Shown here: positions 39,177 through 57,164 of the stretch, piece after piece
Numbering within the stretch: the first letter of the stretch is position 1
How the letters are laid out: every line of letters begins with the position of its first letter
Assembly: GCF_006937785.1 (NCBI RefSeq)
Contig: NZ_SJEE01000007.1
Span: 104,680 to 168,679 of the forward strand
Direction of reading: 5' to 3'
Source of the DNA: Pseudanabaena sp. UWO311
GTDB taxonomy: Bacteria > Cyanobacteriota > Cyanobacteriia > Pseudanabaenales > Pseudanabaenaceae
DNA length: 64,000 nt
Translations under genes and position numbers: made by a program
The notes under the pieces: model-generated
The model's input: the letters and a program-made list of their open reading frames with translations, nothing else
What the model was told of the DNA's origin: nothing
Databases searched by the model: none

Positions 39177-42100
39177 TTGCTCAACGCCTTTCGGCATCAG
39201 AGATTCAACACTACGATCGCGCTTACCGATGAAAAGGTTGCAGAATTGTGCTCAACGCCTTTCGGCATCAGAGATTCGACACAGCATCAAGAGATTCTCA
39301 ATCTAATTCTTCTTCACGTGCTCAACGCCTTTCGGCATCAGAGATTCGACACATGACAAAGATTATTTTCTGTTTGAGGATAAAGCTAGTGCTCAACGCC
39401 TTTCGGCATCAGAGATTCGACACCATCGGATAGACCGCCATTTGTGAAGGACTCTAATAGTGCTCAACGCCTTTCGGCATCAGAGATTCGACACAGTCCC
39501 AAAGCATTGAATGTGGCGATCGCGTAGTAGTGCTCAACGCCTTTCGGCATCAGAGATTCGACACAAACTTCACTTTTTTAAAGCTATGCCAGTAATATGT
39601 GCTCAACGCCTTTCGGCATCAGAGATTCGACACCCAGAGGGAGGATTATCAGAATACAGTCGTAAGAATCGTGCTCAACGCCTTTCGGCATCAGAGATTC
39701 GACACAAATTACATTTAGCTGAGTCTTTGGCTCAAGATTTAGGTGCTCAACGCCTTTCGGCATCAGAGATTCGACACAACATTTTGCCTGCCCTTCTTGA
39801 TTACCTAAGTAGTGCTCAACGCCTTTCGGCATCAGAGATTCGACACTAATATTAGCTTTACCGATCGCAATAGGTTGTTCGTGCTCAACGCCTTTCGGCA
39901 TCAGAGATTCGACACTAATCCCTCCTTTATTCACGGTTGCAGTTTCCTCTCGGTGCTCAACGCCTTTCGGCATCAGAGATTCGACACGGAGTATTTGAGA
40001 AGATTACTTCAACCTCCAGCTCGTGCTCAACGCCTTTCGGCATCAGAGATTCGACACAGAAGCATCAAGAGATTCTCAATCTAATCCTTTTGGTGCTCAA
40101 CGCCTTTCGGCATCAGAGATTCGACACCCAAGGCAAACATAATCTTCTTCGCAGTTTGGCTTTGTGCTCAACGCCTTTCGGCATCAGAGATTCGACACAT
40201 TCTGTAACGGAGTGCGATCCATGACATCTCAAATGTGCTCAACGCCTTTCGGCATCAGAGATTCGACACGAATCCGTCAGCGATCGCAAAATTATCTAGT
40301 CCAATTTGTGCTCAACGCCTTTCGGCATCAGAGATTCGACACAGATAAAGCCGATAAACTTTTATTTGATTGCTTTGACTGTGCTCAACGCCTTTCGGCA
40401 TCAGAGATTCGACACGATGAATTGATTACTGTGCCTTGTTCTCCATCTTGTGCTCAACGCCTTTCGGCATCAGAGATTCGACACGGTTAACGAGAGAGAC
40501 TCGAACTCTCCCTATGGGTGTGCTCAACGCCTTTCGGCATCAGAGATTCGACACGATTGGAATGAGTGTAGACAAACAGCCCTAATACTTGTGCTCAACG
40601 CCTTTCGGCATCAGAGATTCGACACGGGCGCTTGCTCATCTCCTGTTCATTGCGGTGGTAGTGCTCAACGCCTTTCGGCATCAGAGATTCGACACATCGC
40701 GGCATCGGTGAAGCTGAAATCACGCGACATGTGCTCAACGCCTTTCGGCATCAGAGATTCGACACTCATTGCCACGGTAATCGGTGCGAAAACTCCAATG
40801 TGCTCAACGCCTTTCGGCATCAGAGATTCGACACAATGATCGGCAATGGCGCGATCGCTCATAAGTTGCGTGCTCAACGCCTTTCGGCATCAGAGATTCG
40901 ACACGTTCTCTCGCAGAGATGGGAAAAGCTGTACCCTTCGTGCTCAACGCCTTTCGGCATCAGAGATTCGACACTTTGAGGAGATTGTTGCAGCCTCCAG
41001 CACCCTCAAGTGCTCAACGCCTTTCGGCATCAGAGATTCGACACAGTAAAGAAAAGTCAAAAGAATGTGGAGATTTAATGTGCTCAACGCCTTTCGGCAT
41101 CAGAGATTCGACACTTCTACGTTCCCATCAGGATAAAGGCGTAGAAATCGTGCTCAACGCCTTTCGGCATCAGAGATTCGACACCGTTCTAAGACTTGCA
41201 GCTTACCAACATTCAACAAGTGCTCAACGCCTTTCGGCATCAGAGATTCGACACAAAATACTAAAACAGGTGTGACTAGAGTTATTCCGTGCTCAACGCC
41301 TTTCGGCATCAGAGATTCGACACTTAGGATTTTTTGGGCGTTGAAGCGGGGTTTAGTGTGCTCAACGCCTTTCGGCATCAGAGATTCGACACTATCGATT
41401 GATGCTTTGTGGTTTCCTAGTACCGTGTGCTCAACGCCTTTCGGCATCAGAGATTCGACACTTCGTTAATTTTGAACGGTGTTCCATACCATCCAATGTG
41501 CTCAACGCCTTTCGGCATCAGAGATTCGACACACACTCAAGTTAACTATTCTTTTTTCAAAGGGTTTAGTGCTCAACGCCTTTCGGCATCAGAGATTCGA
41601 CACGTACTTGAAGATATTCAAGAAAAGAGTGGAGTGGAGTGCTCAACGCCTTTCGGCATCAGAGATTCGACACACACAGTCAACAACAAAATCCTTACTA
41701 GAACAGATCCGTGCTCAACGCCTTTCGGCATCAGAGATTCGACACGTGGAGTGGACATGTTTGTCCGACGCGACAAAAAAAGTGCTCAACGCCTTTCGGC
41801 ATCAGAGATTCGACACTACTGGCGATACGGGTCAACAGTCGGGCGACGCTAGTGCTCAACGCCTTTCGGCATCAGAGATTCGACACACATTATTAGCTGA
41901 AGCTCCAGTAGAACGTTTAGGTGCTCAACGCCTTTCGGCATCAGAGATTCGACACAACAGGAAATCAAAATGATAAAAACTACTATTTTGTGCTCAACGC
42001 CTTTCGGCATCAGAGATTCGACACAAATATCCTCGTTTGCGGAATGATTGATATAATTTGTGCTCAACGCCTTTCGGCATCAGAGATTCGACACAAAGGA

Positions 42101-44282
42101 GATGGACTATTTGAATTTTTGTACAATCATCGTGCTCAACGCCTTTCGGCATCAGAGATTCGACACGATTGCAAATGCTTGGTAATCTGATGATACTTTT
42201 TTGTGCTCAACGCCTTTCGGCATCAGAGATTCGACACTTGTCAAACCGCTTGTCGATTCTCACAAAGCTATGTGCTCAACGCCTTTCGGCATCAGAGATT
42301 CGACACCAGTATTCAGCGCAAACTTAGAAGGGTTTGGCAATAGTGCTCAACGCCTTTCGGCATCAGAGATTCGACACCCTGTAGTTGTTTGCAATATCTC
42401 TAAATTAGTATGTGCTCAACGCCTTTCGGCATCAGAGATTCGACACCAAAGCAGAGATAATCTCAACTATCAATCTACACAGTGCTCAACGCCTTTCGGC
42501 ATCAGAGATTCGACACGAATAATAAAGGTTTTAGTACCTTCAATATTCTGAGCGTGCTCAACGCCTTTCGGCATCAGAGATTCGACACCCTTGCACTGGT
42601 GTATAATCCACGATTTCCCCCTGCCGTGCTCAACGCCTTTCGGCATCAGAGATTCGACACTTCCACCTCCACAAACTCACGAGACACAATATTTTGTGCT
42701 CAACGCCTTTCGGCATCAGAGATTCGACACGACCCGCTCCAACAGAACCCATAGTTCCCATTCCGTGCTCAACGCCTTTCGGCATCAGAGATTCGACACC
42801 TTTTAGCCCTGCGCCCTCGGTGCAGAATTAATGTGTGCTCAACGCCTTTCGGCATCAGAGATTCGACACACTCGAATCTTAGAAATTGACCTGCGGCAAT
42901 TCTGCCGTGCTCAACGCCTTTCGGCATCAGAGATTCGACACCTCGGCAGTCCTGACCAAGATTTCTGAAGGCTTAGGTGCTCAACGCCTTTCGGCATCAG
43001 AGATTCGACACATTGATTTTCTTGCGATGTCGGATCTGGTGTTTCTTGTGCTCAACGCCTTTCGGCATCAGAGATTCGACACAGAAAATTCAGGCATTTT
43101 AACTACCTCTACCTAGTTTGTGCTCAACGCCTTTCGGCATCAGAGATTCGACACCAGCTTGATTAATTCTCTCGGTAATTCTCTTCCTTTGTGCTCAACG
43201 CCTTTCGGCATCAGAGATTCGACACTTCCATCTGCTTTGTAGACCGCAACCCTGCTAGTATGTGCTCAACGCCTTTCGGCATCAGAGATTCGACACATAA
43301 AGACGCGATATTTGTTCCCGTCATCAGATTGTGCTCAACGCCTTTCGGCATCAGAGATTCGACACTTCCCCCTTGGGATACGACCGTAATTCCACTACTT
43401 CGTGCTCAACGCCTTTCGGCATCAGAGATTCGACACGGCGATCATCCCGTGCATATCCCCGCAAATTTATGTGCTCAACGCCTTTCGGCATCAGAGATTC
43501 GACACCAGGTCATCAAAACCCATAAAAGCGCCAATAGTCTCCGTGTGCTCAACGCCTTTCGGCATCAGAGATTCGACACGAGGCTGTCTAGCCTCACCTT
43601 TGCCCATTGTTGATTGTGCTCAACGCCTTTCGGCATCAGAGATTCGACACCTAAAATTGGCAACGGCAAAGGTGCGCAAGTATCTCGTGCTCAACGCCTT
43701 TCGGCATCAGAGATTCGACACACAGATCTGCTTGACGACATGGCAACCGATTTAAAGTGCTCAACGCCTTTCGGCATCAGAGATTCGACACATCTGTTTC
43801 TAGTGCTTTCTTTGAAGGTCAAAAATCGTGCTCAACGCCTTTCGGCATCAGAGATTCGACACTATCTTCCTTCGTCTTATCAAACCGCTTATCGATGTGC
43901 TCAACGCCTTTCGGCATCAGAGATTCGACACATAAAATCTTCAAACTTGAAACCATCTGCGATCGGTGCTCAACGCCTTTCGGCATCAGAGATTCGACAC
44001 AAAAATGAGAAAGAGCGATCGGTAATTCCGAATTGGTGCTCAACGCCTTTCGGCATCAGAGATTCGACACAAAAATATGCTTGACTTTGAATTTTTCAAT
44101 GCTCATGTGCTCAACGCCTTTCGGCATCAGAGATTCGACACGGATACTATCAGGCACGCATTTTCCGATGATCTTCGTGCTCAACGCCTTTCGGCATCAG
44201 AGATTCGACACATAATCCTGCTTTCCCCGCTGCTGTAGGAGCTGCTCGTGCTCAACGCCTTTCGGCATCAGAGATTCGACAC
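39177..44282 (-). CRISPR. Type I CRISPR array, 73 repeats and 72 spacers
   Basis: The 35-bp repeat reads, on the - strand, GTGTCGAATCTCTGATGCC then GAAAGGCGTTGAGCAC. I count 73 copies, starting at 39177 and ending with the copy at 44248. Spacers are 34-37 bp (mean period 70.4 bp). Only the leftmost copy (39177-39211) is altered, at two positions. A degenerate repeat marks the trailer end, so the leader is on the right beside cas2 and transcription runs leftward. The repeat RNA forms a hairpin (AUGCC-GAAA-GGCGU), leaving a 7-8 nt handle (U)UGAGCAC, as expected for Cas6 processing. All open frames across the array are artefacts. Confidence 0.98.
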
Positions 44283-44528: not shown

Positions 44529-44822
44529 CTAAAAAATCCGATGATGATCGCAGGTCGTTGTCCAAGACTCAGAACGATTGCAAGAAATCATTCTTGAGAC
44601 ACAGCGATCGCACATCCCAGCCAAAAGCAAACTATCATCAGCCGTCAGGATTTTTTCTAGCTCCCATCGCAACTTCTCGCGATCGCGCATATTCAACGCA
44701 CAACGAAAAATTGAGTATTGAACCCGATCGCCATAGCCTTGCAAAAGCTTATAAGCTTTGCGCCATCTTTTCGGATCGCGAATGTCATAGCAAATTAAAT
44801 ACCAGTTCTTTGTTTCAGCCAC
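44529..44822 (-). CDS. cas2: CRISPR-associated endoribonuclease-fold protein Cas2
   Basis: 97 residues. NWYLICYDIRDPKRWRKAYKLLQGYGDRVQYSIFRC is the Cas2 ferredoxin fold with the conserved Asp in YDIRD. The C-terminal tail is slightly longer than usual. It forms the integrase complex with Cas1. The start codon lies 4 bp after the cas4-cas1 stop. Confidence 0.95.
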   Translation of the reverse strand: MAETKNWYLICYDIRDPKRWRKAYKLLQGYGDRVQYSIFRCALNMRDREKLRWELEKILTADDSLLLAGMCDRCVSRMISCNRSESWTTTCDHHRIF

Positions 44823-44826
44823 TGGA

Positions 44827-46518
44827 CTACCTCAAAACCAATTGAGCAAATAGACCTTCTTCTCCATTCCATTCTTTCTCTAGTAAACGAACTTCCAACT
44901 CAAACAAACGGCGATAAGTTAACGAATATCCCAAAACAGGATGTTTCCAACTCTCCTGCTTCCGCTTCTCATAGATATCAATAAACTTACGCCGCCCCGA
45001 CTCACTTAGCCATACCTGAGCGCCGCGAATTTCAAAATCCTCCTGAACCTGCCACTGACCACGATTGATTGAAGCCACGATCGGCATATCCACCAAAGGT
45101 ACACGAAAAATCTCAATCAAATCCAAAGCCAAAGGCGGTGCTTGCGTTCGCGGCTGGTGGTAAAACCCAAGCGCAGGCTCCAAACCCACCGCCAAAATTG
45201 CACTCATCACATCCTTCAATAAAAGTGCATACCCAAACCCCAATAAAGCATTAAAACGGTCTTTAGGAGGACGACGATTGCGATCGCTAAACTGCATTTC
45301 CATCGGTACATCAGCACCTAAAAGTTTAGGCAAAGCCCCAAAATACAAAGCCGCTAAATTGCCTTCTAATCCTAAAAGTGAAGGAATAGAATTTACCTCT
45401 GGAATTTGCTTGAGGATAATTTGCATCTGCTTAATCGCCTTTTCCAGATCCTCTGGAACTTGCTCCATTCCACGTTGACCCCGCATCAAAAATTTGCGTT
45501 GTCCCTTGCCGCGACAAATCACCAGTTTCTTAGCCAAATCCAGACACTTATCAGGATTACTCAAAGCTGCATATTGGCGAATACGTCTCTGGATACTGCC
45601 ATTACGCGGATCGAAACTGCCCACATAGCGCCCACCCCCCGACACAAAATGCACACCAATATCTTGAGAAACACAAAGATGTAGAGCCTGAGTCGAGATT
45701 TGCGAAAAGCTATGTAAAACCAACTGTCCAATTTGCTTGGCTGGCACAATCTCCTCAGAGCGATCGCGCTTCACAATTTTGATTTGTTCGCCTTTCTTAC
45801 CAACACTCGTACCAGCCTCAAGTACATGGATTACCTCACGTTCGTCATCTTTGGGGAATAGCCTCACAGGTTGCCATTCGCGATCGTGCGCTAATCTCGC
45901 TTCTTCAGGTAGACACACAGGTGAAAGAGAGCATCGCCCACAAAGCCTTTCATTATCGGTAACTGGTGGTCGGCAAGGTGAAGCACGTAAATATTTTGAT
46001 CTAGCGATCGCATCACGCACTAATTTTCTACCTTCATCATCAAGGGTTACATGAACTAAAACATTGTCGGCATGGTAACGAATCCTTCCCTCTTGAATCG
46101 AAATCCCCAAAGCCATCTCAAGCAAATAGGCATAGGCAAGGATCTGCAAGTGATCGCTTTCCCATGCGACCGGCTGTTTGTTTTTGTCTCGCGCCGCTTT
46201 ACCCCGTTTATGTTCATAGGGAATTGTCTGACCGTTGCGGGTACGTAGAGCATCAACCTTGCCACGCAAACCCAGTTCAGCACTTTCTAAAAAAAGTTCA
46301 TCCCAGTCCTCATCTTCTTGTTTCTCAAGTTCAGCATGGAGCCGTCGTCCTGCAAAAACTGCGGCATCTTGGGTATAGAGTTCTTCTACTTCTTCGAGAT
46401 AAAACAGACGTTCGCAGTAGGCTAATGCATGGAGAGCCGAAACACGGATCGTATCTTGTGCGGTATCGCCAGTTTCTGCCAATCGTAAATCAGTCTTATC
46501 AAATTCTAGTGCCAACAT
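44827..46518 (-). CDS. cas4-cas1: Cas4-Cas1 fusion protein
   Basis: 563 residues. The N-terminal ~215 residues are Cas4: CERLFYLEE (first cysteine), the RecB-type motifs LRGKVDALR and YEHKRGKAA, and CGRCSLSPVC (three further cysteines for a 4Fe-4S cluster). The remainder is Cas1: the metal-binding Glu in LGLEGNLAALYFGAL, then NALLGFGYALLLKDV, and the His/Asp region EPALGFYHQPRTQAPPLALDLIE. The fusion links protospacer trimming and PAM selection (Cas4) with integration (Cas1). Fused Cas4-Cas1 is characteristic of some type I-B/I-G loci. Confidence 0.96.
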   Translation of the reverse strand: MLALEFDKTDLRLAETGDTAQDTIRVSALHALAYCERLFYLEEVEELYTQDAAVFAGRRLHAELEKQEDEDWDELFLESAELGLRGKVDALRTRNGQTIPYEHKRGKAARDKNKQPVAWESDHLQILAYAYLLEMALGISIQEGRIRYHADNVLVHVTLDDEGRKLVRDAIARSKYLRASPCRPPVTDNERLCGRCSLSPVCLPEEARLAHDREWQPVRLFPKDDEREVIHVLEAGTSVGKKGEQIKIVKRDRSEEIVPAKQIGQLVLHSFSQISTQALHLCVSQDIGVHFVSGGGRYVGSFDPRNGSIQRRIRQYAALSNPDKCLDLAKKLVICRGKGQRKFLMRGQRGMEQVPEDLEKAIKQMQIILKQIPEVNSIPSLLGLEGNLAALYFGALPKLLGADVPMEMQFSDRNRRPPKDRFNALLGFGYALLLKDVMSAILAVGLEPALGFYHQPRTQAPPLALDLIEIFRVPLVDMPIVASINRGQWQVQEDFEIRGAQVWLSESGRRKFIDIYEKRKQESWKHPVLGYSLTYRRLFELEVRLLEKEWNGEEGLFAQLVLR

Positions 46519-46567
46519 ATTTCATTACCTCCAATTATATTTAGGTGCAAAAACGATAAAAGTTAAT

Positions 46568-46596: not shown

Positions 46597-46601
46597 AAGT
46601 A

Positions 46602-47234
46602 TCAACTTGGGTTAATTTCTGTCCATGAATTAACTGGTGGATCATAGTTAATCTCTGTTTTTTTTAGAGAATAGCGCTGCCATCTAGTTCCCTTTGAGCC
46701 AACATGATCGACCCAATAGGGCAAAGTTAGTAAACCGTCCTTATCATGTTCTAGCCATTGCCAATGTCCCGCTAAATCTGTGGATTTAACGAGCTGAATC
46801 GAATTCACGAGATCGCGGCTTTCACCCAAGCATAGACCACCAAAACGAGCGATCACTTCAGGATTCTCAAAAGCAGATTGCAGGCGATCGGCTAAATTTG
46901 GCTGTGCCGATTCCAATTGAGAATCCAAATACACTACAAATCGAATATCCGTGAGCAATTCCTGATAGTCGGGACGTGCATTAGTCGGATCAGCAATCTC
47001 CCTTTTCTTAAAGCGCCGAAAAGTACGGATTACGGTTGATTTTTCAGGCTGTGACAACATGGCTATCGCTAATTTCACACCTATATGTCGATAGCGATTC
47101 ACTTCACCCACACAGGACAGCAGCATTCCATAAACCGTAGCAGGCGGCGGCACTGGATAGGTTTCCGCGTACTCACGGGCGCGGGATTGCCGAAAACAGG
47201 CGATCGGTACTTCCACTAAAAGCGAGATCGACAT
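46602..47234 (-). CDS. cas5: Cas5 (Cascade subunit, DevS-like)
   Basis: 210 residues. The N-terminal LLVEVPIACFRQSRAREYAETYPVPPPATVYGMLLSCVG is the RAMP ferredoxin fold and glycine region typical of Cas5 from the MYXAN/I-B branch. Cas5 caps the 5' handle of the crRNA. cas7 ends 2 bp upstream. A repeat-derived hairpin separates it from cas4-cas1. Confidence 0.88.
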   Translation of the reverse strand: MSISLLVEVPIACFRQSRAREYAETYPVPPPATVYGMLLSCVGEVNRYRHIGVKLAIAMLSQPEKSTVIRTFRRFKKREIADPTNARPDYQELLTDIRFVVYLDSQLESAQPNLADRLQSAFENPEVIARFGGLCLGESRDLVNSIQLVKSTDLAGHWQWLEHDKDGLLTLPYWVDHVGSKGTRWQRYSLKKTEINYDPPVNSWTEINPS

Positions 47235-47236
47235 AA

Positions 47237-48148
47237 TTAAACCTCCAAATCTCGCTGAATCTTGCGCTTGATATCTTCCACTGCCGACTTAATGCCCTTA
47301 AAAACATTGGCTCCCTTGGCTTCAAGCTTTTCACCAATCTCTGTATCAAGAATTGCTCCTGCAATCCACAACTCATCGGAATCAATATCTTCTGCTTCGA
47401 CTCGGCGCAATAAGTCAGGAGCAGAGATCTCACCTTCATCTTCGGTAAAGCAATAAAGCAAACGCGGCGAAAAATCATTTGTCCAGCGTAAAACAATACT
47501 ATCAGGAGCAAAATCATAGAGAAATCGTGAATGATTGCCAGCCACGCCGCCAAGGTCAATCAACCCATCAAGTACCGCATGAATGCGAGACTTATCCTTG
47601 AGGCGATCGGGTGTCATCGCAAATCCATACTGATAGCGAGTTGCATGAACTTCCGTTCCATAAAGAGAAGTCCGTCCTTTCTGCCCACTGGTCGCATTAA
47701 AAGTAATATCGCCAGCATAGGGAATTGTCGAAACCGCACGAGTTACTTCCAAAACCCCACGCTTGACCATAGCAGTTCCTTTCGGAGCCGCCTTTGGCTT
47801 CTTCTTAGTACCCGTCGGCTCTTGTTCTTCATTCGCTTCAGTCTTGGCAGCATCGGCACGCATGAAGCCCAAGACATCATCATCAATGTAAAGTGCATCA
47901 TCAAAAGCAGCATTTTGCCAAACGTTATCGTTTTTGCCCTCATCCCATTGACGATTAACCTGATACTCGCCAGAGGTCTGCCAGTAATAGCGCAAAGCCC
48001 AACGAATTGCCTCAGCCGAAACAGTTGTATGTACTTCTCCCTGCCAGAGAATCTTTTGCAAAGTTGTGATGTTGCCTTCGTTTTCACCGCGATTGTTTGC
48101 AGCCGCACCGTAATTAGTGAGAATATTGCCGAAAAGATGCCAAGTCAT
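47237..48148 (-). CDS. cas7: Cas7 (Cst2/DevR-like backbone subunit)
   Basis: 303 residues. The N-terminus MTWHLFGNILTNYGAAANNRGENEGNITTLQK and VHTTVSAEAIRWALRYYWQ are characteristic of the DevR/Cst2 group of Cas7. A Lys/Pro-rich insertion lies at ~100-120. GTEVHATRYQYGFAMTP and LGGVAGNHSRFLYDFAPDSIV follow. It polymerises along the crRNA spacer. It starts after the toxin-antitoxin pair and an intervening repeat-derived hairpin. Confidence 0.93.
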   Translation of the reverse strand: MTWHLFGNILTNYGAAANNRGENEGNITTLQKILWQGEVHTTVSAEAIRWALRYYWQTSGEYQVNRQWDEGKNDNVWQNAAFDDALYIDDDVLGFMRADAAKTEANEEQEPTGTKKKPKAAPKGTAMVKRGVLEVTRAVSTIPYAGDITFNATSGQKGRTSLYGTEVHATRYQYGFAMTPDRLKDKSRIHAVLDGLIDLGGVAGNHSRFLYDFAPDSIVLRWTNDFSPRLLYCFTEDEGEISAPDLLRRVEAEDIDSDELWIAGAILDTEIGEKLEAKGANVFKGIKSAVEDIKRKIQRDLEV

Positions 48149-48184
48149 AGTTATTTACCTTGAAATAAATTTATTTGATTTCTG

Positions 48185-48212
48185 TTTTTACGCCTATTGG
48201 CATCTGAGGAAA
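48185..48212 (-). ncRNA. Repeat-derived hairpin between the PIN-like gene and cas7
   Basis: On the - strand CCTCAGATGCCAATAGGCGT matches the stem-loop part of the CRISPR repeat (15 of 19 bases around the stem), with loop AATA. The bases on the handle side are not conserved. It lies 41 bp before the cas7 start and 5 bp after the toxin stop, and may be a Cas6 processing site that separates the toxin part of the mRNA from cas7. Confidence 0.65.
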
Positions 48213-48217
48213 AATCT

Positions 48218-48556: not shown

Positions 48557-48558
48557 AG

Positions 48559-48858: not shown

Positions 48859-48861
48859 TAC

Positions 48862-50502
48862 TTAATCCTCCTCTTCATCAAAATCTACGTTTGTAAAACC
48901 TTTAGGAATAGGAGCGGTCTTAGGCTCATGCTCAATTTGACTGGATACTTCTGAATCTTCTGATTCTTGAGTAGTAGAACCGTTATACCCAGAGTTATCT
49001 CTCCCTTTATAACTAACTAAGGCAAGCAAAGCCAAATCCCTTGCTGCTTTCCAATCATCTGTCATGAGTCTCATAAACTCTTCCCAGTTATCTTGCACAG
49101 TAGGTAACCTGCCTGCTCTAGCCCAGAAGTCCATCACAAATTCTCTTACAGAGTTCCGATTTTTGCAACGCATTAGTTTAGTTCTAAATTTCTGGTTCAC
49201 CTTGTCAAGGCGAATTTTTTCATCTTCTTTAGTACGTTCTGATTGTTGCCCATAGGTATTGCGTAATGCTTCGTGAAAAGCTTTTACGAAAAGCCGTTCT
49301 TCCTTGCTCCATTCAATCTTTTTGCTCTGAATCATTTGATTTAATCCCTCTCGCTCATAGTTTAATTTTTCAAATAAATCACTACTTGTAATTTTGTTAG
49401 AAAGCTCAGCATGCCAAGGCTTACCTCTAGCAAGATTATCGGCAATCAACTCCCGCGCTAGACTTATTGCTATAAAGCTATTTTCTTCTTTATCTCTAGC
49501 AATAATCCTATCCTGTAAACATTCTCGACTAACTCGATAATTTTGAAGAACTTTACTTGCTTCACCAATATTAACAAGATAGAGATCAGTACGAGTTTTT
49601 TGTTGAGTTGACCATGCGACTGTTCCCATCGTGATGACTTGACAAGCTGGAATATCGTAGTCTTTCGCCAGTTTCTCTGCCATTGTTAGAAATTGTAATC
49701 CTGCATCTCCCAAACTGGACGCAAAGAATTCCTTAAACGCTCGATTGCGGAGACTTATGCGATACCTAGCATACTTTTCTAGATTGCGAATTTCGGGGAT
49801 AACTAGTGCATATTGAGCGCGTTGCTCACGAAGGCGCGATCGCAATACAAAATAACAACAAGCAACAGGTGCAAATAGCAAAATTAAGGCAAGATGAGCA
49901 GGTTCTTGAAAGCTCGTATCACTACTAAACGCTGTGTGACGAACTGCTGCACCTAGATTAAGCCAGCCTGCAATACTAATTGGCTTAGTAGAGAGATTTC
50001 CATTTTTGTCACAAAGATTTTCGGCAAACTCCTGATAGACATAGGATTTTAATGCTTTGTAGCGAATAATAATTGGATAAGATTCCTCATCTTCGTAATA
50101 AATTTTGGTTTGTACTCCAATACTTTTATGGGTGCTGTTGTGTTGAAGTAAAGTGCCTAAAATACCCTGATGGGCGATCGCTAAATACTGCGGTGGCATT
50201 TGTTTTGCGTCTAGTCCACGCAAGCTAATCATGTCACCCTGTAATTGAAAAGACTGCTCGAACAACCATTTCAAGGTATCAAGCGCTTTACCTTGCCAGC
50301 TTAAAGTTATAGATCTTTGATCGAGATTCCATTGCAGAGGGATCTGAGAATTATGTTGGAAATTCTGATTTTCGCGATCAAGCTGCCGAAGCGTCATGTA
50401 TAGACCTGCTAATCCAGCCCGATGCATTAAAGTCATCTGTGGATCGGCGAGATCAAAAGTCAGGGTTTGTGTCTCTATTTCTAACGCAATTAATGTTTGC
50501 AT
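48862..50502 (-). CDS. cas8: Cas8 (MYXAN-type large subunit, Cmx8-like)
   Basis: 546 residues. It opens with QTLIALEIETQTLTFDLADPQMTLMHRAGLAGLYMTLRQLDRE, an N-terminal pattern I recognise in type I-MYXAN Cas8 proteins. The middle is poorly conserved and the C-terminus is acidic (NVDFDEEED). In type I-B Cascade this subunit recognises the PAM. AGGAGCAG precedes the ATG. The start overlaps the cas3 end by 13 bp. Family assignment rests partly on context. Confidence 0.82.
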   Translation of the reverse strand: MQTLIALEIETQTLTFDLADPQMTLMHRAGLAGLYMTLRQLDRENQNFQHNSQIPLQWNLDQRSITLSWQGKALDTLKWLFEQSFQLQGDMISLRGLDAKQMPPQYLAIAHQGILGTLLQHNSTHKSIGVQTKIYYEDEESYPIIIRYKALKSYVYQEFAENLCDKNGNLSTKPISIAGWLNLGAAVRHTAFSSDTSFQEPAHLALILLFAPVACCYFVLRSRLREQRAQYALVIPEIRNLEKYARYRISLRNRAFKEFFASSLGDAGLQFLTMAEKLAKDYDIPACQVITMGTVAWSTQQKTRTDLYLVNIGEASKVLQNYRVSRECLQDRIIARDKEENSFIAISLARELIADNLARGKPWHAELSNKITSSDLFEKLNYEREGLNQMIQSKKIEWSKEERLFVKAFHEALRNTYGQQSERTKEDEKIRLDKVNQKFRTKLMRCKNRNSVREFVMDFWARAGRLPTVQDNWEEFMRLMTDDWKAARDLALLALVSYKGRDNSGYNGSTTQESEDSEVSSQIEHEPKTAPIPKGFTNVDFDEEED

Positions 50503-52868
50503 GGTTCTGCTCCTACTTCTTCGCTGTATTGAATCGCATCATTTGGCGCTCTTAGATAGAATTTACAACGTTTCCAAGTTTCCCATCCTTTCATAAGTCG
50601 GATCGGTATGCTCCAAGCTTGAGCCTCTTGTATAAAGGATTTCTTGTTTACTTCTGATGCTTCCTTGATTGCTGCCATATCATTGTCAAGAATGACGGTC
50701 ATCGTTCCACCACCTTCACGCAACGCTACAGGATAAGTTTCCCAATCGAATTCTAGCCAAGCTGAGGGTATTTCTTCTTGAGGAACTGGTAAAGCAATTT
50801 CTTTAGCAATGTTGGCAAGATCTTCTTGACTAATTGATTCATAATTCTTTAATTCCTCAATCAATCGAATTCCTGTTCTCATTTCATCATTTGTATATGG
50901 CATTCCATCCCAAGCATAAAAGATCGCAGTACGGATATGTTTGACTCGAAACTGTTCGGGAGCATATTCATCTGCTTTCCGATTTAATCGTCCTAAACGC
51001 TGAATTAATGCAGCCGCAGGAGCCATTGCAGAAACTAAAAGGTCGGCGCTAAGATCGAGTGACATTTCACAAACTTGGGTTGTGACTGCTAGGCAGGGAT
51101 CGCAACACTTAAAAGCTTCAATAACTTTTTCATGTTTTTTAACGCGATCCTTATAGCGAAAGCGGCTGTGATAGATCAAATGTTTGATATTTGGGTAATC
51201 TAGTTTTGCAATATATTCTTTTGCTTTGTGGTAAATATCAATGCAAGATTGGACTGAATTTGTCACCCACAAGACTTTTTCACCACGTTCTAAAGCTTCA
51301 GCTACAGCCGCAAAAATTGGCTGCAAATTCTCGATCTTAGAATTAACTTCAGGACGATAGTCAAATTGATAACGCTTAATTTCTTCAAGAGGTTTGTAAC
51401 CTTCATCCAAAATATTAATCCCCTCTTTGAGATCTTCTTCAATCACTTTACGGATTTCTTCCTTCTGTTCCTCGCTAAAACTAGCACTCATCAGCAAAAT
51501 TGGCGCACCACGAAAGGTTTTTAGGAATTTCAATAAAGCCCCAAACAAGCGATCGTCATAGGCATGAACTTCATCGAATACAAAAGCAGCTTGCACTAGA
51601 GCAGGAAAGGCGTACAAAGGACGACGATTGTTTTGCATCAATCCCAAAACTGTATCCACTGTGCAAACTACGATTTTTTTTGTCCATGCTTGCAATGCTG
51701 ATAATCTCGCATCAATACTTTCTGAATCATCTTGTTCACCAGAAAACAACAATTCGCGATCAAGTTCTGAACGAGAATGCATCAGTGCTGATTCAGTCTT
51801 GCTACCATTTGCATAGTCAATAAATCCTTGCGTTGCTGTTCCTGTGGTGGGATAGCAAAAGAACAGTTTACGAGCAGTCTGATTTGGATTTTTTGTTGCC
51901 CATTTTTGTGCCCAAGCATAGGCAGCAATGGTTTTTCCAGTGCCACAACCTGCCTTAACCAGCGTGACGCGATGTTCAGTATTCGCTATGGCTTTTTGAA
52001 AATGGCGTAATTTTTTGCTTCCCAGCTTTTCTTGTAGAATATTATCTAAATCCTCATGATCTAAAACTAGTTCCAGCATTTTAGGAATCCAGTCCTTAAT
52101 ATTTTCGCCTTGTTCAGTCAAAGCGGAACCAGCAAGATCGGCAGCAATTACCGTAGCTTTTACAGCGGCAATAAAGCGCTGTTCATATTTGTTACGTTTT
52201 GATAAATTGCCAAATTCATCCATGAGTTTTCTGATCGCATCTTCTAGCTCCTCTCGACTCCAATCACGGGTTGGCACAGTGGGAACCAACGAAGGTAAAC
52301 CTAAATACTTTACCCCCATTTTCTTAGTGATCAATTCAAAATCTTCGTGGGATGTAAAGACTGTGAGAGTTGAGCCTGTTCCATTAGGAAAATCATCGAT
52401 TTTATTTGCATCAAGTTTGAGATGATGCCCCATCGCCGCCCACACTGCCACGATTAGATCGGCATCAGGCACTTGTGAAAGCCATGTGCGAAACGCTGGA
52501 ACCTGTAAAGCCAAGATACCGCTCAATACCTCATGGCGAATCATTTGGCGCTGTCCATGCGATCGCCAAGCTTTTTGTACTAGCACATGTTCAGTCGGTG
52601 GCAAAATATCCGAGGTCGAGTTACGATAAACCATTTCCTGAAAATGTTGATTAGCCTTACCCCAATCATGGAGATATGCGGCTAATTCCACAGTTCTTTC
52701 AAATTTTGGACGATCTTTCGCGTCTACTTCCAATTGTTGAAAAATGCGATCGCCAATTTCCCCAAGGATTGTTTTTGCAGATTTATACACAGCCCAGATA
52801 TGCCCTGTAAAGGTTGCCGATGTGCAAGATACAGAGTTTGCCGATTTTGCAAGTAATCTTTCAAACAT
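50490..52868 (-). CDS. cas3: Cas3 nuclease-helicase
   Basis: 792 residues from the ATG at 52868, which shares its A with the cas6 stop (TGATG). HD nuclease motif YLHDWGKANQHF at ~66-77, Walker A KAGCGTGKTIAAYAWA, DEVH box FVFDEVHAYD, motif III SASFSEEQ and motif VI LIQRLGRLNRKADEYAP are intact. Cas3 degrades DNA marked by Cascade. With intact HD and helicase motifs the locus should be interference-competent. An ATG 12 codons upstream (52904) lies inside cas6 and was not preferred. Confidence 0.95.
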   Translation of the reverse strand: MFERLLAKSANSVSCTSATFTGHIWAVYKSAKTILGEIGDRIFQQLEVDAKDRPKFERTVELAAYLHDWGKANQHFQEMVYRNSTSDILPPTEHVLVQKAWRSHGQRQMIRHEVLSGILALQVPAFRTWLSQVPDADLIVAVWAAMGHHLKLDANKIDDFPNGTGSTLTVFTSHEDFELITKKMGVKYLGLPSLVPTVPTRDWSREELEDAIRKLMDEFGNLSKRNKYEQRFIAAVKATVIAADLAGSALTEQGENIKDWIPKMLELVLDHEDLDNILQEKLGSKKLRHFQKAIANTEHRVTLVKAGCGTGKTIAAYAWAQKWATKNPNQTARKLFFCYPTTGTATQGFIDYANGSKTESALMHSRSELDRELLFSGEQDDSESIDARLSALQAWTKKIVVCTVDTVLGLMQNNRRPLYAFPALVQAAFVFDEVHAYDDRLFGALLKFLKTFRGAPILLMSASFSEEQKEEIRKVIEEDLKEGINILDEGYKPLEEIKRYQFDYRPEVNSKIENLQPIFAAVAEALERGEKVLWVTNSVQSCIDIYHKAKEYIAKLDYPNIKHLIYHSRFRYKDRVKKHEKVIEAFKCCDPCLAVTTQVCEMSLDLSADLLVSAMAPAAALIQRLGRLNRKADEYAPEQFRVKHIRTAIFYAWDGMPYTNDEMRTGIRLIEELKNYESISQEDLANIAKEIALPVPQEEIPSAWLEFDWETYPVALREGGGTMTVILDNDMAAIKEASEVNKKSFIQEAQAWSIPIRLMKGWETWKRCKFYLRAPNDAIQYSEEVGAEPCKH

Positions 52869-53527
52869 CACTTCCTCTCTTTGACTGGAATAAATACACC
52901 ACATCCCATGTGACGCTTACCACCAAGTCCATAGACTTGTAATTTCAATGAATCTTCTTCACTTATGCGAGTTACTTCTACCGTAAACCCAACCACCGTA
53001 AAACGTTTGATTTTGATAGTTTTCCGTGCAGGATCTCCATTACGATCGCTAGGAATCAAAATCTCTCCTTGAATTTCTAATGCTTCTAACTGTCGTTTTG
53101 CTGCTGCCAAAAAAGGTTCTGGTTCTTCATAGCCCTTAATTGTGACAATACGCGATCGCAAATGGGCGTGAGGCTTTAGGGTATGAATAGTGGGAATTCC
53201 TAACTGCACCTCGTGTATCCCTAATCTCAAGCGTTTTCCTGCCAGTGGATAAACCATTTGGATCTTGCTTATAGGAACGCGCAGCCGAAAATAGGAATTC
53301 TCCGTAAGCAAAATTTTCCCTTTACGATCTCCAAACCCTGCCGCAGACAAAATCGCAATGTCATGATGTTCTTTGATATTCGGTACATGATTGGCGATCG
53401 CGGCTAAAAGTGCATACCCATGATCGGCAGGTAACTGTGTACCACGCACATGAAAAGATAAATCAATAAACGATCCCAATGACTCGCTGGAATAAACCTG
53501 ACGAGCCGTTTGTAAAGAAGTAACCAT
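52868..53527 (-). CDS. cas6: Cas6 crRNA endoribonuclease (MYXAN type)
   Basis: 219 residues. Tandem RAMP folds, ending with the glycine-rich loop GLGGKRHMGCGVF characteristic of Cas6. LSFHVRGTQLPADHGYALLAAI is the N-terminal family pattern. It cuts the repeat hairpin to give crRNAs with an 8-nt-type 5' handle. It is the first cas gene, 99 bp after a short coiled-coil ORF. Confidence 0.92.
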   Translation of the reverse strand: MVTSLQTARQVYSSESLGSFIDLSFHVRGTQLPADHGYALLAAIANHVPNIKEHHDIAILSAAGFGDRKGKILLTENSYFRLRVPISKIQMVYPLAGKRLRLGIHEVQLGIPTIHTLKPHAHLRSRIVTIKGYEEPEPFLAAAKRQLEALEIQGEILIPSDRNGDPARKTIKIKRFTVVGFTVEVTRISEEDSLKLQVYGLGGKRHMGCGVFIPVKERK

Positions 53528-53626
53528 TGGTAACTCTCCTATTTAGTTAAAGAAAATTCTGTAGGCTTGCTTTGAGTGATTGGACATTGTGAAGCAATGA
53601 AATACTTACTACGAAAGCCTAAAAGT

Positions 53627-53833
53627 TTAGTAATCGTTCCACCAGTCAGCTAGAGGTGTGCAATCTGGCGAAAGATGATCTACCCGACATTCGAGTAAGG
53701 AATTCCGCTCAGATAGCGAACTGTTATCAAGGCGCAATCGCTGATTTTCGGACTCTAACTCTTGGTAAGCCTTACACTTTAAGCAAAATGGGCAAAGCTG
53801 CCCACTTTGTATACGAGGGGGATGTGATAGCAT
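53627..53833 (-). CDS. Small Cys-motif/coiled-coil protein at the head of the cas operon
   Basis: 68 residues, not recognised. SGQLCPFCLKCKAY is a CxxCxxC cluster able to bind zinc. It is followed by a leucine-zipper-like helix (ELESENQRLRLDNSSLSERNSLLECRVDHL). It is the first frame after a strong promoter (TSS expected near 53887), though no Shine-Dalgarno is visible before the ATG at 53833. It could be a small DNA-binding regulator of the locus or a leader peptide. Function is unknown. Confidence 0.55.
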   Translation of the reverse strand: MLSHPPRIQSGQLCPFCLKCKAYQELESENQRLRLDNSSLSERNSLLECRVDHLSPDCTPLADWWNDY

Positions 53834-53862
53834 AAACTTAATAATTAATAAATTTTAGAAGT

Positions 53863-53889
53863 GGGGCAGCCAAATAGTTGCCCCCTTTT
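53863..53889 (-). promoter_or_regulatory. 5' UTR hairpin of the cas operon
   Basis: GGGGCA and TGCCCC pair around ~10 nt, just after the expected transcription start and about 30 nt before the small ORF. It may stabilise the mRNA or affect translation. Confidence 0.4.
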
Positions 53890-53893
53890 TTTT

Positions 53894-53922
53894 ATACTAT
53901 GTCAAATTATTTGTTCTGTCAA
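53894..53922 (-). promoter_or_regulatory. Sigma-70-type promoter of the cas operon
   Basis: Leftward -35 TTGACA (53922-53917), exactly 17 bp spacer, -10 TAGTAT (53899-53894). This near-consensus promoter drives the small ORF and cas6 onward. The guide-matching site lies immediately upstream. Confidence 0.85.
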
Positions 53923-53939
53923 GATTTTTTAATCCTTAA

Positions 53940-53962
53940 CAACCTACCGATATCATTAGTAT
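53940..53962 (-). promoter_or_regulatory. Candidate target of the crRNA-like guide, with 5' ATG
   Basis: Read leftward from 53962 this site matches guide positions 1-23 with mismatches only at 12, 15 and 18. Positions 1-11 (ATACTAATGAT) are perfect. The three bases 5' of it (53965-53963) are ATG, a candidate PAM. A 35-nt Cascade footprint from here would end near 53928, 6 bp from the -35 box. Confidence 0.75.
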
Positions 53963-53969
53963 CATCTTA

Positions 53970-53994
53970 AAAGTTATAAGCCCCAAAGAGGGCT
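53970..53994 (-). terminator. Possible weak terminator of the guide transcript
   Basis: AGCCC and GGGCT pair around TCTTTG, followed by TATAACTTTT on the - strand. It lies between the second degenerate repeat and the target site. The stem is only 5 bp, so support is modest. Confidence 0.35.
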
Positions 53995-54004
53995 AACCTG
54001 ACTT

Positions 54005-54147
54005 GGGTTTATCGCCTTACGGCATCAGAGGTTGAGAGCAGATGGCGTGATTGAAGCAGATCTGCTCGGCACTGATCAACCAACGGAGATCATTAGTATG
54101 TGCTCAACGCTTTTGCACAGATCTTTAAAGCATCAAAGATTTGACTG
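54005..54147 (-). ncRNA. Mini-CRISPR unit: two degenerate repeats enclosing a 60-nt guide (CreR-like)
   Basis: On the - strand the first repeat (54147-54100) keeps the 3' end GCGTTGAGCAC exactly and the stem GATGCTT/AAGCGTT, but its loop is enlarged by 13 nt. The guide is 54099-54040. The second repeat (54039-54005) keeps the hairpin CTCTGATGCCGTAAGGCG but has lost the handle, as expected for a last repeat. Cas6 cutting at both hairpins would release one crRNA with a normal handle. The guide's first 23 nt match a site at the cas promoter. The unit's own promoter is not clear; it begins within ~72 bp of the divergent ecf gene. Confidence 0.82.
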
Positions 54148-54218
54148 TAACCTTATCATTTTTTAAGGCTTAGCGAGTTACACTTCAGGTTTGAATTGGC
54201 GTATTTTTAGTCAAAATT

Positions 54219-55949
54219 ATGAATGAGATCGATGCGATCGCAGTTTTAGATAAGGTTTCATTTATATATCCCAACGCGAAGGAGACAGTATTAAAAGATA
54301 TATCGCTAACGATTAAGAAAGGAGAATTTTTAGGCATAATTGGTGCGACAGGAGCAGGGAAAACTACACTATGTCTTGCCCTTACAGGTATCGTTCCCCA
54401 GTTTTATGGTGGACGTTTTTTTGGCAAAATTGCGATCGCTGGTTTAGATACCCTCGAACATCCCGTGAGCGAATTAGCGCGTCATGTGGGAATTGTTTTT
54501 GAAGATCCTGAAATCCAGATTACCGCCACCTCTGTTGAAAATGAAATCGCCTTTGCCCTCGAAAATCTCTGCATTCCCCGCGAAGAAATTTTGCGACGGA
54601 TTCCCATTGTTTTAAAATCAGTTCGTCTCGAAGGATTTGAAAAGAAAAATCCGCAAGAGCTTTCGGGCGGTCAAAAACAACGTTTAGCGATCGCTGCTGC
54701 TCTTGCTCTACAACCTGATTTACTAATACTCGATGAACCAACCTCACAACTCGATCCTGTTGGTTCTCAAGAAGTCTTTGCTACAGTCAGGGAATTAAAA
54801 GAAGAACTGGGCGTAGCGATCGTGATGGTTTCCCATGCTGCTGAAGAAATGGCAGAATTTTGCGATCGCATTGCCTTACTCTCACATGGTAAATTAATCG
54901 CAGTTGGCACTCCAGAAGAAATTTACTCACAGGTAGATCTGCTACAACACAACAAACTGCGTCCTCCTGAAGTCGCTCAAGCTTTTAGCCAAATCCAACA
55001 AAAGGGCATTGATATCCCTAAAATTCCCGTTACTTTAGAGACTGGGATTAAAGCCTTAAGTGAACTGCGATCGCAAATTCAACCAATTGAGCCGCCAATA
55101 TTCACCACTCCCTTTCGTAGCAATAAATCGCCCGTTCTCTCAGTCCAAAATCTAAAACATACCTACGATGACGGCACGGAAGCACTCAAAAATATCTCGC
55201 TAGATATCCATGAAGGCGAATATGTGCTAATCGTCGGACAGAATGGTGCAGGAAAAAGTACCCTTGTGAAGCATTTCCTAAATTTGCTAAAACCCACATC
55301 AGGAAAAGTATTGGTACGCGATCGCGATACTAAAGATCTATCAGTCAGCGATCTTGCTCAATCCATCGGCTATCTCGCTCAAAATCCCGACAACCAAATC
55401 TTCAATACTTCCGTCGAGAAAGAAGTTGCTTTTGCGCTGCCTTTCCTTGGTTATGCGCCCGATATCGTCAAGAAAGAAACTGAGCGCAGTCTTAAAGCCA
55501 TGCAGCTATGGGAGCAGCGCCATGCTCATCCATTATCTTTACCAAAGGGAGAACGTGGTCGCATCGTTATTGCGGCGCTATTAGCCATGAATCCTGAGAT
55601 CATCATTTTTGATGAACCGACTACAGGACAAGACTATCAGGGTGCTTCTTCGATTTTAGAAGTCAGTCGTCAGCTACACCAAATGGGAAAAACCGTGATT
55701 GTGATTACCCATCATTTATATCTCATGCCTGACTATGCCGATCGCGCGATCGTAATGGGCAAAGGCACGATTTTGCTAGATGCACCCTTGCGCCAAGCTT
55801 ATCATCAAACTGATTTGCTGGAGTCCACCTACCTCACGCCGCCGCAATCGGTGGAGCTATCGCAAAAGCTCAGTGAAATATGCGATCGCGAATATTCTTT
55901 GATTACTCCAACCGAATTTGCTAGTTGTTTTACTCCTCCACAAATTTAG
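54219..55949 (+). CDS. ECF-type transporter ATPase, two ABC domains in one chain
   Basis: 576 residues. Domain 1 (~1-240): Walker A GATGAGKTT, signature LSGGQKQR, Walker B LLILDEPTSQLDP. Domain 2 (~305-540): Walker A GQNGAGKST, Walker B IIIFDEPTTGQD, but the signature reads LSLPKGERGR instead of LSGGQ. This is a fused EcfA/CbiO pair that energises uptake of a vitamin or metal. The T component gene starts 3 bp after. No S component is adjacent, so the substrate is unknown. Confidence 0.9.
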   Translation: MNEIDAIAVLDKVSFIYPNAKETVLKDISLTIKKGEFLGIIGATGAGKTTLCLALTGIVPQFYGGRFFGKIAIAGLDTLEHPVSELARHVGIVFEDPEIQITATSVENEIAFALENLCIPREEILRRIPIVLKSVRLEGFEKKNPQELSGGQKQRLAIAAALALQPDLLILDEPTSQLDPVGSQEVFATVRELKEELGVAIVMVSHAAEEMAEFCDRIALLSHGKLIAVGTPEEIYSQVDLLQHNKLRPPEVAQAFSQIQQKGIDIPKIPVTLETGIKALSELRSQIQPIEPPIFTTPFRSNKSPVLSVQNLKHTYDDGTEALKNISLDIHEGEYVLIVGQNGAGKSTLVKHFLNLLKPTSGKVLVRDRDTKDLSVSDLAQSIGYLAQNPDNQIFNTSVEKEVAFALPFLGYAPDIVKKETERSLKAMQLWEQRHAHPLSLPKGERGRIVIAALLAMNPEIIIFDEPTTGQDYQGASSILEVSRQLHQMGKTVIVITHHLYLMPDYADRAIVMGKGTILLDAPLRQAYHQTDLLESTYLTPPQSVELSQKLSEICDREYSLITPTEFASCFTPPQI

Positions 55950-55952
55950 AAT

Positions 55953-56801
55953 ATGAAATTGCAAACAGTTAAGTATGATTCTCTATTTACGCGCTTAGAT
56001 TTTCGTTCTAAGTTGGTGGTGATGCTTTCGGTCACAATTCTTGCTTTCCTATGGGAAAGCCCGATCGCAGGTGGGATTTTGATGTTGAGCGTGATTGCTT
56101 CCTGCGTTCTTGCTGGAGTCAGGCTCAATTATCTAGGAAGCATTTTAAAAGTGATGATTCCCTTTTATATCTTTCTGATTTTGAGCATGGGGTTTTTTAA
56201 TGTGGAGCAGGTTAAGTTGCTTACCAATAAATTAGAATTAACGTCCCTATTGAGCTTGCCCCAAACATGGTGGGTAGTTGGTGGTGCAAAACTGAGTCAA
56301 GAGGGAACGCTTTACGGATTGAATATTGTGTTTAAAACGCTGACGATGATTTTGGTGATTCCGTTAGCGATTTTCACTACCGATGTTAATCAAATGACAG
56401 TGGGCATGGTACGCGCCAAAATCCCTTATAAAGTGGTGTTTATCTTTTCATCAACCTTGCGATTTGTGCCACTTTTACTAGAAGAAGTGCAATCAATCAT
56501 TGAGTCACAGCGCTTACGTGGCTTAAATTTCGAGAAGATGGGATGGTTAAAAAAAGCGCGAGTTTATGCCAAGGTTGCTGTACCTTTAATTCTAAATTCA
56601 CTCTCGAAATCGCAAAAATTAGAAATAGTTTTGCAGTCAAAAGGTTTTTCAGGTAGTTCCGATCGCACTTATTTGCATGAGTCAGCTTTAACAACTGCTG
56701 ATTACCTGTTGATGATTGTTTCTAGTCTGATATTTGTAATTGCGATCGTCTTATATTTTGGTTGGGGAATTGGCAAATTTGCTTGGCTTCTTTATACCTA
56801 A
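55953..56801 (+). CDS. ECF transporter T component (CbiQ/EcfT)
   Basis: 282 residues, about six transmembrane helices. The coupling motif IIESQRLRGLNFE (the Arg-Gly signature contacting the ATPases) follows LRFVPLLLEEV. It links the fused ATPase to an S component, probably encoded elsewhere. Operon with the preceding gene. Confidence 0.9.
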   Translation: MKLQTVKYDSLFTRLDFRSKLVVMLSVTILAFLWESPIAGGILMLSVIASCVLAGVRLNYLGSILKVMIPFYIFLILSMGFFNVEQVKLLTNKLELTSLLSLPQTWWVVGGAKLSQEGTLYGLNIVFKTLTMILVIPLAIFTTDVNQMTVGMVRAKIPYKVVFIFSSTLRFVPLLLEEVQSIIESQRLRGLNFEKMGWLKKARVYAKVAVPLILNSLSKSQKLEIVLQSKGFSGSSDRTYLHESALTTADYLLMIVSSLIFVIAIVLYFGWGIGKFAWLLYT

Positions 56802-57164
56802 AAGCGTCGCTTGTAGGTATAAAGCGATTTTATAACGATATTCGCAGAAATTTGCAAGTGATTGGCTTTTTTAGAAGTTTATACGAGATCAGCTAATTTC
56901 TTTGGAATTAATGCTAAGCGATCGATAGAAGTGCAGCAAGTTTCTTTTTTTGCTGACGCTCTTGCTCAACGATCGCCTCTGCTTGTTGTTTTTTTAGGTT
57001 AGCTTGATTAGCGATCGCCTTCGCCAGTTGTTTTTCACGACTTGCTGCATCGAGATACTGTGACAGGCGATCACTTGATTTCTAAGTGAATTGATTGAAT
57101 GAGATACAAACCTTCACCTAAAGATATTGAGATTGGTGGCTTGAAGAGCAACCAATCTTGACTC
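56802..57164. other. Intergenic region with a Uma2 remnant
   Basis: 363 bp after the ecf operon. Apart from the Uma2 tail fragment at 56913-57070, I see no gene. No clear terminator follows the ecf genes. Confidence 0.5.
56913..57070 (-). pseudogene. C-terminal coiled-coil fragment of a Uma2-type protein
   Basis: Leftward frame encoding AASREKQLAKAIANQANL and KKQQAEAIVEQERQQKKKLAALLSIA then a stop at 56913. Such Gln/Glu/Ala-rich tails end many cyanobacterial Uma2 (DUF820) proteins. No start or nuclease domain is present. Confidence 0.5.

Follow-up and report, generated by a model that had tools for sequence, protein, structure and literature searches.

For the host, CRISPR immunity carries both costs and risks. 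Autorepression of cas genes by CreR has been described in type I-B, I-E, and V-A systems (PMC12737573, PMC13131331). The CreA RNA of CreTA in haloarchaeal type I-B systems acts instead on a toxin RNA gene at a site next to a TTC PAM, is framed in H. hubeiense by two degenerate repeats, psi-R1 and psi-R2, and was found by mutation to need guide positions 1–5 and 7–11, but not 6 or 12 (PMC8501985). The long-form tracrRNA of Cas9, which also is CRISPR-derived, represses its own cas promoter through partial pairing, and in the delocalized crRNAs of CAST systems a derived repeat and its guide lie outside the array (PMC8730458). The latter direct transposition by a Cascade that lacks Cas3 and is encoded inside a Tn7-like element. 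In myxobacteria, the dev operon is subject to autoregulation (PMC3983513) and includes a subtype I-B system (PMC8730458). CreR was not found in cyanobacterial or MYXAN type I-B systems among the titles and abstract openings that were searched, and the term was absent by word search from a review of cyanobacterial type I systems (PMC11903412). No claim of priority is made here because the Shmakov 2023 survey (gkad495) may list such units.

The stretch under study (the window, 64,000 nucleotides of Pseudanabaena sp. UWO311) carries a type I-B system of the MYXAN branch, an assignment based on matches to TIGR02807, TIGR03485, TIGR02586, and TIGR03983 that were each above cut-off. The cas operon and array comprise the following features.

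52868..53527, minus strand: cas6 (cmx6), first cas gene of the operon (TIGR02807, 242 bits; cut-off 98.85)
50490..52904, minus strand: cas3, HD nuclease and helicase (profile match)
48862..50502, minus strand: cas8 (Cmx1/Csx13; TIGR03485, TIGR03486)
48218-48858, minus strand: DUF433-DUF5615 gene pair within the cas operon, in the gap between cas8 and cas7
47237..48148, minus strand: cas7 (DevR family; TIGR02585)
46602..47234, minus strand: cas5 (DevS/Cmx5; TIGR02586)
44827..46518, minus strand: cas4-cas1 fusion (MYXAN; TIGR03983)
44529..44822, minus strand: cas2 (profile match)
39177..44282, minus strand: CRISPR array in the sense of the cas operon, with 73 repeats found by script

Two repeat-like hairpins that lack a handle lie within the operon on the minus strand, CCTCAGATGCC-AATA-GGCG (48191-48209) between the DUF5615 gene and cas7, and CCTCTGATGCC-GCTA-GGCG (46572-46590) between cas5 and cas4-cas1. 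Comparable hairpins, likewise without a handle, are found in the cas operons of L031, L061, L140, L150, L152, L155, L157, and L162, among others, and may be sites at which Cas6 cuts or binds the cas mRNA.

Upstream of cas6 is a compact unit built from degenerate repeats, listed here with the sequences between it and the operon.

54100..54147, minus strand: psi-R1, degenerate CRISPR repeat 1, recognized by comparison with the array repeat
54040..54099, minus strand: 60-nt guide region, which starts at 54099 right after the handle
54077..54099, minus strand: 23-nt targeting segment, with 20 identities to the site at 53962-53940
54036..54067, minus strand: stem-loop within the guide region (GAGCAGAT ... 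ATCTGCTC), from folding; as first drawn it overlaps the start of psi-R2
54005..54039, minus strand: psi-R2, degenerate CRISPR repeat 2, with the hairpin kept and the handle lost
53979..53994, minus strand: intrinsic-terminator-like hairpin 3′ of psi-R2 that closes the unit ahead of the site
53963..53965, minus strand: ATG flank at the place of a type I PAM, read from the sequence
53940..53962, minus strand: matched site, in the same sense as the guide, which would pair with the plus strand
53894..53922, minus strand: predicted cas promoter, TTGACA-17-TAGTAT, read from its hexamers

In the sense of transcription the order thus is psi-R1, guide, psi-R2, terminator-like hairpin, ATG, matched site, promoter-like hexamers, and cas6. 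We interpret the unit as very probably specifying a CreR-type crRNA-like RNA that would steer the system's own type I-B Cascade to the predicted cas6 promoter, repressing the cas operon but leaving its DNA uncut.

The last 11 nt of psi-R1 (54110-54100), GCGTTGAGCAC, are identical to the end of the array repeat, which reads GTGTCGAATCTCTGATGCCGAAAGGCGTTGAGCAC on the minus strand, and would yield the 8-nt 5′ handle TTGAGCAC. The hairpin retained in psi-R2 is GATGCC-GTAA-GGCG (54026-54013). The two repeats therefore may share the work, with psi-R1 contributing the handle and psi-R2 the Cas6 hairpin. The guide region of 60 nt compares with spacers of mostly 34-36 nt in the array of the window (59 of 71). 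The matched site lies 137 nt further on from the guide, and the two differ at positions 12, 15, and 18 (20 of 23 identical), whereas positions 1-11 are free of mismatches. The two degenerate repeats, the 23-nt similarity, its three mismatches, and all coordinates had been proposed in a first-pass annotation and were confirmed to the base, as was the claim that the match starts exactly at the junction of handle and guide with a perfect 11-nt seed. The ATG together with the first part of the site, ATGATACTNATGATNTC, has one zero-mismatch occurrence in the 5.2-Mb genome, which is the matched site; a second one was not found. Terminator-like sites numbered four in the 1-kb region, both strands considered, against 0.7 expected. 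A promoter for the unit itself was not found on the minus strand upstream of psi-R1, and an Rfam scan of 44000-57000 (E up to 0.5) returned four array repeats only, under the gathering score.

As in CreR systems, a degenerate repeat with a preserved 5′ handle precedes a spacer-like guide and adjoins the cas operon; a limited match over the seed (1-5, 7-11) links the guide to a PAM-flanked site ahead of that operon, the match beside the predicted cas promoter is partial, and a toxin would not be needed. The unit differs from described CreR in belonging to MYXAN/cmx6 type I-B systems of cyanobacteria, in its ATG flank, in a match that usually extends to position 17, in the ~60-65-nt guide region with a conserved stem-loop that part of the family has, and in not having been found together with a WYL gene directly upstream of cas6 (0/34 loci). 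It shares with CreA the two degenerate repeats, the seed, and a PAM beside the site, but the flank is ATG and the next cas gene is cas6. The Cas9 example belongs to another class of effector and uses an extended tracrRNA, not a handle-guide unit. Unlike the CAST systems that employ delocalized crRNAs, the window possesses cas3 as well as adaptation genes.

The earlier annotation also had claimed a near-consensus cas promoter behind the site. The hexamers and the 17-nt spacing are correct, and TTGACA begins 17 nt past the 23-nt match, which is 40 nt after the start of the site; however, a promoter scan gave three promoter-like sites with 2.5 (sd 1.7) expected, a count that is not above chance, and the case for the predicted promoter therefore comes from the quality of its hexamers and from the other loci. 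When the 34 loci with the unit that are described below were inspected for promoters, without a chance control, 16 scored at least 9 and 16 scored 7.5-8.5, and nothing was found in L149 and L155. The placement varies: relative to the site, TTGACA starts at +16 in L031 and at +10 in L070, and within the TTTC-guide set it precedes the site by 42-46 nt in 12 of 18 loci, a spacing that brings the site to the predicted start of transcription. Cascade thus would sit just upstream of the promoter, over it, or at the start point.

To place the window among its relatives, 76 stretches from genome searches with cas6/cmx6, five named contigs, and the window were assembled, giving 82 loci, or 80 after removal of the duplicates L134 and L163. 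The best 37 further matches (~211 bits or more) were taken from one cas6 genome search, and another contributed three new loci, with G592 and G593 left out. A cas3 gene is located behind cas6 in 57 loci. The remaining 23 are termed without cas3 in the sense that no cas3 match lies behind cas6: one of these (L077) has cas3 in front, and five (L034, L077, L090, L126, L136) hold <6 kb behind cas6 owing to the end of the contig or stretch. Many of the cas3-less loci appear to carry the transposon-associated cas6-cas8-cas7-cas5 set. Under a strict rule that demanded a handle of at least 7/9, an ATG, and at least 12/15 matches at positions 1-5, 7-11, and 13-17, with the site 60-260 nt downstream and within 1000 nt of cas6, the unit was detected in 30 of 57 loci with cas3, including the window, in none of 23 without, and in one of 2000 shuffled regions. 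At a threshold of 11/15 the values were 33/57, 0/23, and 4/2000, respectively. This absence from loci without cas3 is a further difference from the delocalized CAST guides.

A list of 34 loci used below comprises the 30 strict cases, three at 11/15 (L069, L070, L143), and L147 (10/15 at a nearby site); in L071 and L147 the site nearest to cas6 was used, not the best-scoring one, and a match in L076 was dropped as an artefact of array repeats. Four of 23 upstream regions in a further sample, counted irrespective of cas3 status, also had the unit. The other two cmx6 loci of the same genus, L056 and L057, are without it. The upstream DNA of the window gave short matches only in 26 genomes of the genus, the best of which, a 42-nt identity in G403, is the start of the shared neighbor gene cbiO. 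Sites on the opposite strand were sought in 42 upstream regions; the best among the matches listed was 12/15 and none was ATG-flanked. A second ATG-flanked match of at least 13/15 occurs in four loci (L035, L071, L147, L152), compared to none with reversed guides. The second site in L035 overlaps psi-R1 itself, an arrangement that would let the RNA limit its own gene.

The correspondence of guide and site also was assessed blind, by choosing the handle site without regard to targets in 31 loci (28 with cas3 and 3 without). An ATG-flanked match of at least 12/15 was present in 21 of 31 loci versus 1 of 1860 dinucleotide shuffles; guides swapped between loci qualified in 26 of 930 cases, some guides being related. 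When the demand for a PAM was lifted, the best site still was ATG-flanked in 21 of the 21 qualifying loci. Scoring evenly over 17 positions with no PAM, 20 of 31 loci reached at least 13/17, and the ATG flank was present in 20 of 20. Two of the blind failures, L140 and L162, have the unit, and the choice had landed on another handle-like site nearer to cas6. Chance similarity of guide and site is rejected by the counts from shuffled regions and from the blind test.

The guides of the 34 loci form 18 clusters, and 38 loci form seven families at loose linkage, yet each guide matches its own site. The covariation between guide and site that had been proposed as a check on homologous loci was therefore found. 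In the closest relative, L162 (74% Cas6 identity), psi-R1 is nearly identical to that of the window, and positions 13-17 of the guide read AATGT compared to TCCGT in the window, with AATGT and TCGGT in the respective sites; guide and site thus were altered together at positions 13-15. It also had been expected that the similarity would be present in homologous loci and would not continue past the repeat boundary. The second part held in all 34 loci, but the first did so incompletely as the unit is missing from 27 of 57 loci with cas3 by the strict rule, and from 23 of 57 by the relaxed list.

Across the 34 loci, the frequency of matches between guide and site was 0.91-1.00 at positions 1-5, 0.85-1.00 at 7-11, and 0.68-0.88 at 13-17. 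Values at positions 6 (0.24), 12 (0.26), and 18 (0.24) were at chance level, frequencies of 0.12-0.50 were observed beyond position 18, and the three bases upstream of the junction matched at 0.03, 0.00, and 0.00. Because positions 1-5, 7-11, and 13-17 and the ATG served to select the sites, the only values that this choice could not have shaped are those at positions 6, 12, and 18 and the fall-off. The set that was scored evenly and without a PAM repeated the pattern, with 0.40 at position 6, 0.15 at position 12, and 0.25 at position 18. Judged from this comparison of sequences, the free positions 6, 12, and 18 are the base-flipping register of Cascade, and the pairing pattern is the one established by mutation for CreA (PMC8501985). 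The prediction that mismatches at flipped positions would cost little agrees with the freedom of positions 6 and 12. The accompanying remark that every sixth base is flipped out fits binding, but leaves the lack of cutting unexplained; the fading of the match near position 17 would account better than base flipping for a target that is not cut.

The unpaired position 6 shows a tendency on the DNA side. The base in the site is A in 29 of the 34 loci and in two of the four that were added later, 31 of 38 in all, and the guide carries C or T at this position in 27 of 34 loci. A is the commonest base at site position 6 in seven of the seven loose families (p 2.6e-4; background frequency of A 0.307). 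The corresponding result for position 12, four of seven families, is not significant (p 0.14), and A also is common at site position 18 (28/38) and at the unpaired positions 19-20. No excess of A at positions 6 or 12 was detected in 434 ordinary array spacers and, thus, a general spacer bias does not explain the A at position 6 of the site. This preference for A is a tendency, not a rule, and reading of the flipped base by Cascade is a possible cause.

These patterns bear on the explanation that the unit is a decayed array remnant beside a duplicated operator, with guide and site representing two copies of a transcription-factor site. Two similar 28-nt stretches (repeat family D14) do lie close together upstream of the operon, as such an origin would suggest. 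However, the similarity begins at the repeat boundary and never before it in 34 loci, the sequences vary between loci while guide and site continue to match, the free positions recur every six bases when numbered from the handle, and the ATG flanks the site only. As a general explanation the duplicated operator was rejected on the junction-bounded match, the covariation, and the blind tests, and we regard it as very improbable.

A second alternative is that the RNA is a CreA-like antitoxin that mainly restrains a toxin instead of adjusting cas levels, either a product of the leader, such as a 68-aa open frame, or the DUF433-DUF5615 pair. These two families are known from toxin-antitoxin-like pairs. 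The leader between the predicted promoter and cas6 is ~360 nt, and the 68-aa frame (53627-53833, minus strand) stands behind the predicted promoter, with the DUF433-DUF5615 pair further along the same transcript and duf433 matches in the operon of L162. Hairpins at 53863-53884 and 53789-53804 in this leader both score as terminators on the plus strand. The leader may thus give rise to a small product other than Cas proteins, or to a toxin RNA. Against a toxin, the other 81 loci yielded no convincing relative of the 68-aa frame, the best match (E 0.42) being far from cas6; among the operon stretches compared, the DUF pair was seen in the window only, apart from the duf433 matches in L162, and it is three genes behind the site. 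Moreover, the site ends no more than 126 nt before the cas6 match in 10 of 34 loci, which leaves little room for a toxin gene. The antitoxin explanation accordingly is given very little credence.

The suggestion that ATG is the PAM was examined with the array spacers of the window. In comparisons with 26 genomes of the same genus, in each of which part of the candidates was scored, three non-self sites of 92% identity were identified in G396 and G390 among the candidates scored. Their flanks were ATG, ATG, and ATA, so that two of three are in agreement with the proposed PAM. The other matches among the candidates scored were in other arrays or involved one self-matching spacer. A search of 50,697 phage records with the spacers gave no match at E 0.05. 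An ATG PAM also is compatible with related systems, as PmcCAST I-B2 uses 5′-ATG and AvCAST 5′-AT (PMC12719977), and ATG ranked first among the flanks of myxobacterial type I-B protospacers in IMG/VR (36.84%), although in the phage set from GenBank TTG (21%) exceeded ATG (17.39%; PMC11237760).

The self-matching spacer (2363-2396 of the array 44282-39177, minus strand) matches G000:C2:31247-31280 (L211) in its own genome over all 34 nt, at the start of a host gene of RelA/SpoT type (Pfam RelA_SpoT, HD_4), and 21 of the 26 genomes of the genus have a match of 92-100%. The target is flanked by GAC, with ATG two bases further out, and this displacement may be why the spacer is tolerated. Although that full-length host match reveals that self-acquisition occurs in the lineage, the notion that the unit is a two-repeat CRISPR relic with an accidental self-spacer from the host upstream region and no regulatory role is scarcely credible: a fresh self-spacer should match over its whole length and without a register and, given an ATG flank and active Cas3, should be lethal. 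Moreover, 30 of 57 loci have the layout in the same position, the match fading near position 17, and the guide region is 60 nt long with a stem-loop.

This stem-loop occupies the 3′ part of the guide region and is predicted by folding for the window, L162, and the TTTC-guide set. Pairing in the 21 aligned loci of the 34 was retained in 90.4% of cells compared to a shuffled mean of 83.3, with none of 500 shuffles as high, counts that include three invariant-like pairs of the psi-R2 hairpin and that, for alignment A1, are biased in favor of a structure that was itself deduced from mostly these sequences. Cells altered on both sides numbered 19 versus 8.6 in shuffles, and pairing dropped to 37.5-55.1% when one arm was slid by 1-3 columns. 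The evidence for the stem-loop is good, but not final, because related sequences can pass such shuffles without structure. In 28 of 34 loci, the psi-R2 hairpin pattern itself separates guide and site.

Loci that lack the unit frequently possess a different candidate regulator in its place. A gene for a WYL-domain protein, identified with the Pfam WYL profile in L057 and by tblastn in other loci, stands immediately upstream of cas6 in 15 of the 23 loci that lack the unit versus none of the 34 that have it (Fisher p 2e-8, calculated for loci that are not independent). WYL-domain regulators of cyanobacterial CRISPR-Cas systems thus are comparable to the unit in their position upstream of cas6 in sister loci; in contrast, they are proteins, and none of the 57 loci with cas3 was seen to combine the RNA unit with a WYL gene immediately upstream of cas6. 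In 11 of the 34 loci, a WYL gene or fragment occurs further upstream, with the unit between WYL and cas6. In loci without a unit at cas6, the region upstream of the WYL gene gave candidate units in 16 cases, none of which was ATG-flanked at 12/15 or better. A Cas6 tree of 75 rows requires seven changes for the unit and seven for the adjacent WYL gene, and it groups L131 (WYL) with L132 (unit) as sisters.

The WYL gene is found in both of the other cmx6 loci of the genus. In one of these, L057, it is located between cas6 and a divergent cbiO, which is the gene that flanks the unit in the window. Genes cbiO and cbiQ (window 54219-56801) are 96.5% and 94.7% identical between the two loci and have the same orientation upstream of cas6. 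The cas4-cas1 fusion is 95% and cas2 100% identical, whereas cas6 is only 57% and cas3 only 31% identical. Conserved flanks around divergent cas6 and cas3 suggest that the effector genes, together with their regulator, whether RNA or protein, were exchanged at one chromosomal place.

Recurrence, covariation, register, and the ATG flank are consistent with autorepression by Cascade, the interpretation put forward in the first-pass annotation. In this mechanism, Cas6 would cut the degenerate repeats to release an RNA that starts UUGAGCACAUACUAAUG. Cascade loaded with this RNA would bind the site and block RNA polymerase, and the short match would fall short of the full R-loop that is required by Cas3. 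Repression would lift once Cascade is depleted by ordinary crRNAs or anti-CRISPR proteins; the stem-loop of the guide region may take up the part of the guide RNA that extends beyond what Cascade accommodates. A more elaborate version is tentative and, on balance, doubtful: the site may follow a code for binding without cutting, ATG-N5-A, in which the flipped base is read on the DNA side, pairing stops at about position 17, and the conserved stem-loop caps the remainder of the guide and prevents a full R-loop, while the RNA switch and the WYL regulator would interchange at one promoter and travel with the effector genes.

A whole branch of cyanobacterial type I-B systems appears to gauge the amount of its effector by means of an RNA assembled from components of the system. 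From sequence alone, the comparative set indicates a PAM, a seed, and flipped positions for the Cascade encoded in the window, and the A at position 6 suggests a preference on the DNA side at a base generally regarded as unread. Natural guides of this type may repress without cutting and, as such, would be useful for gene control in cyanobacteria.
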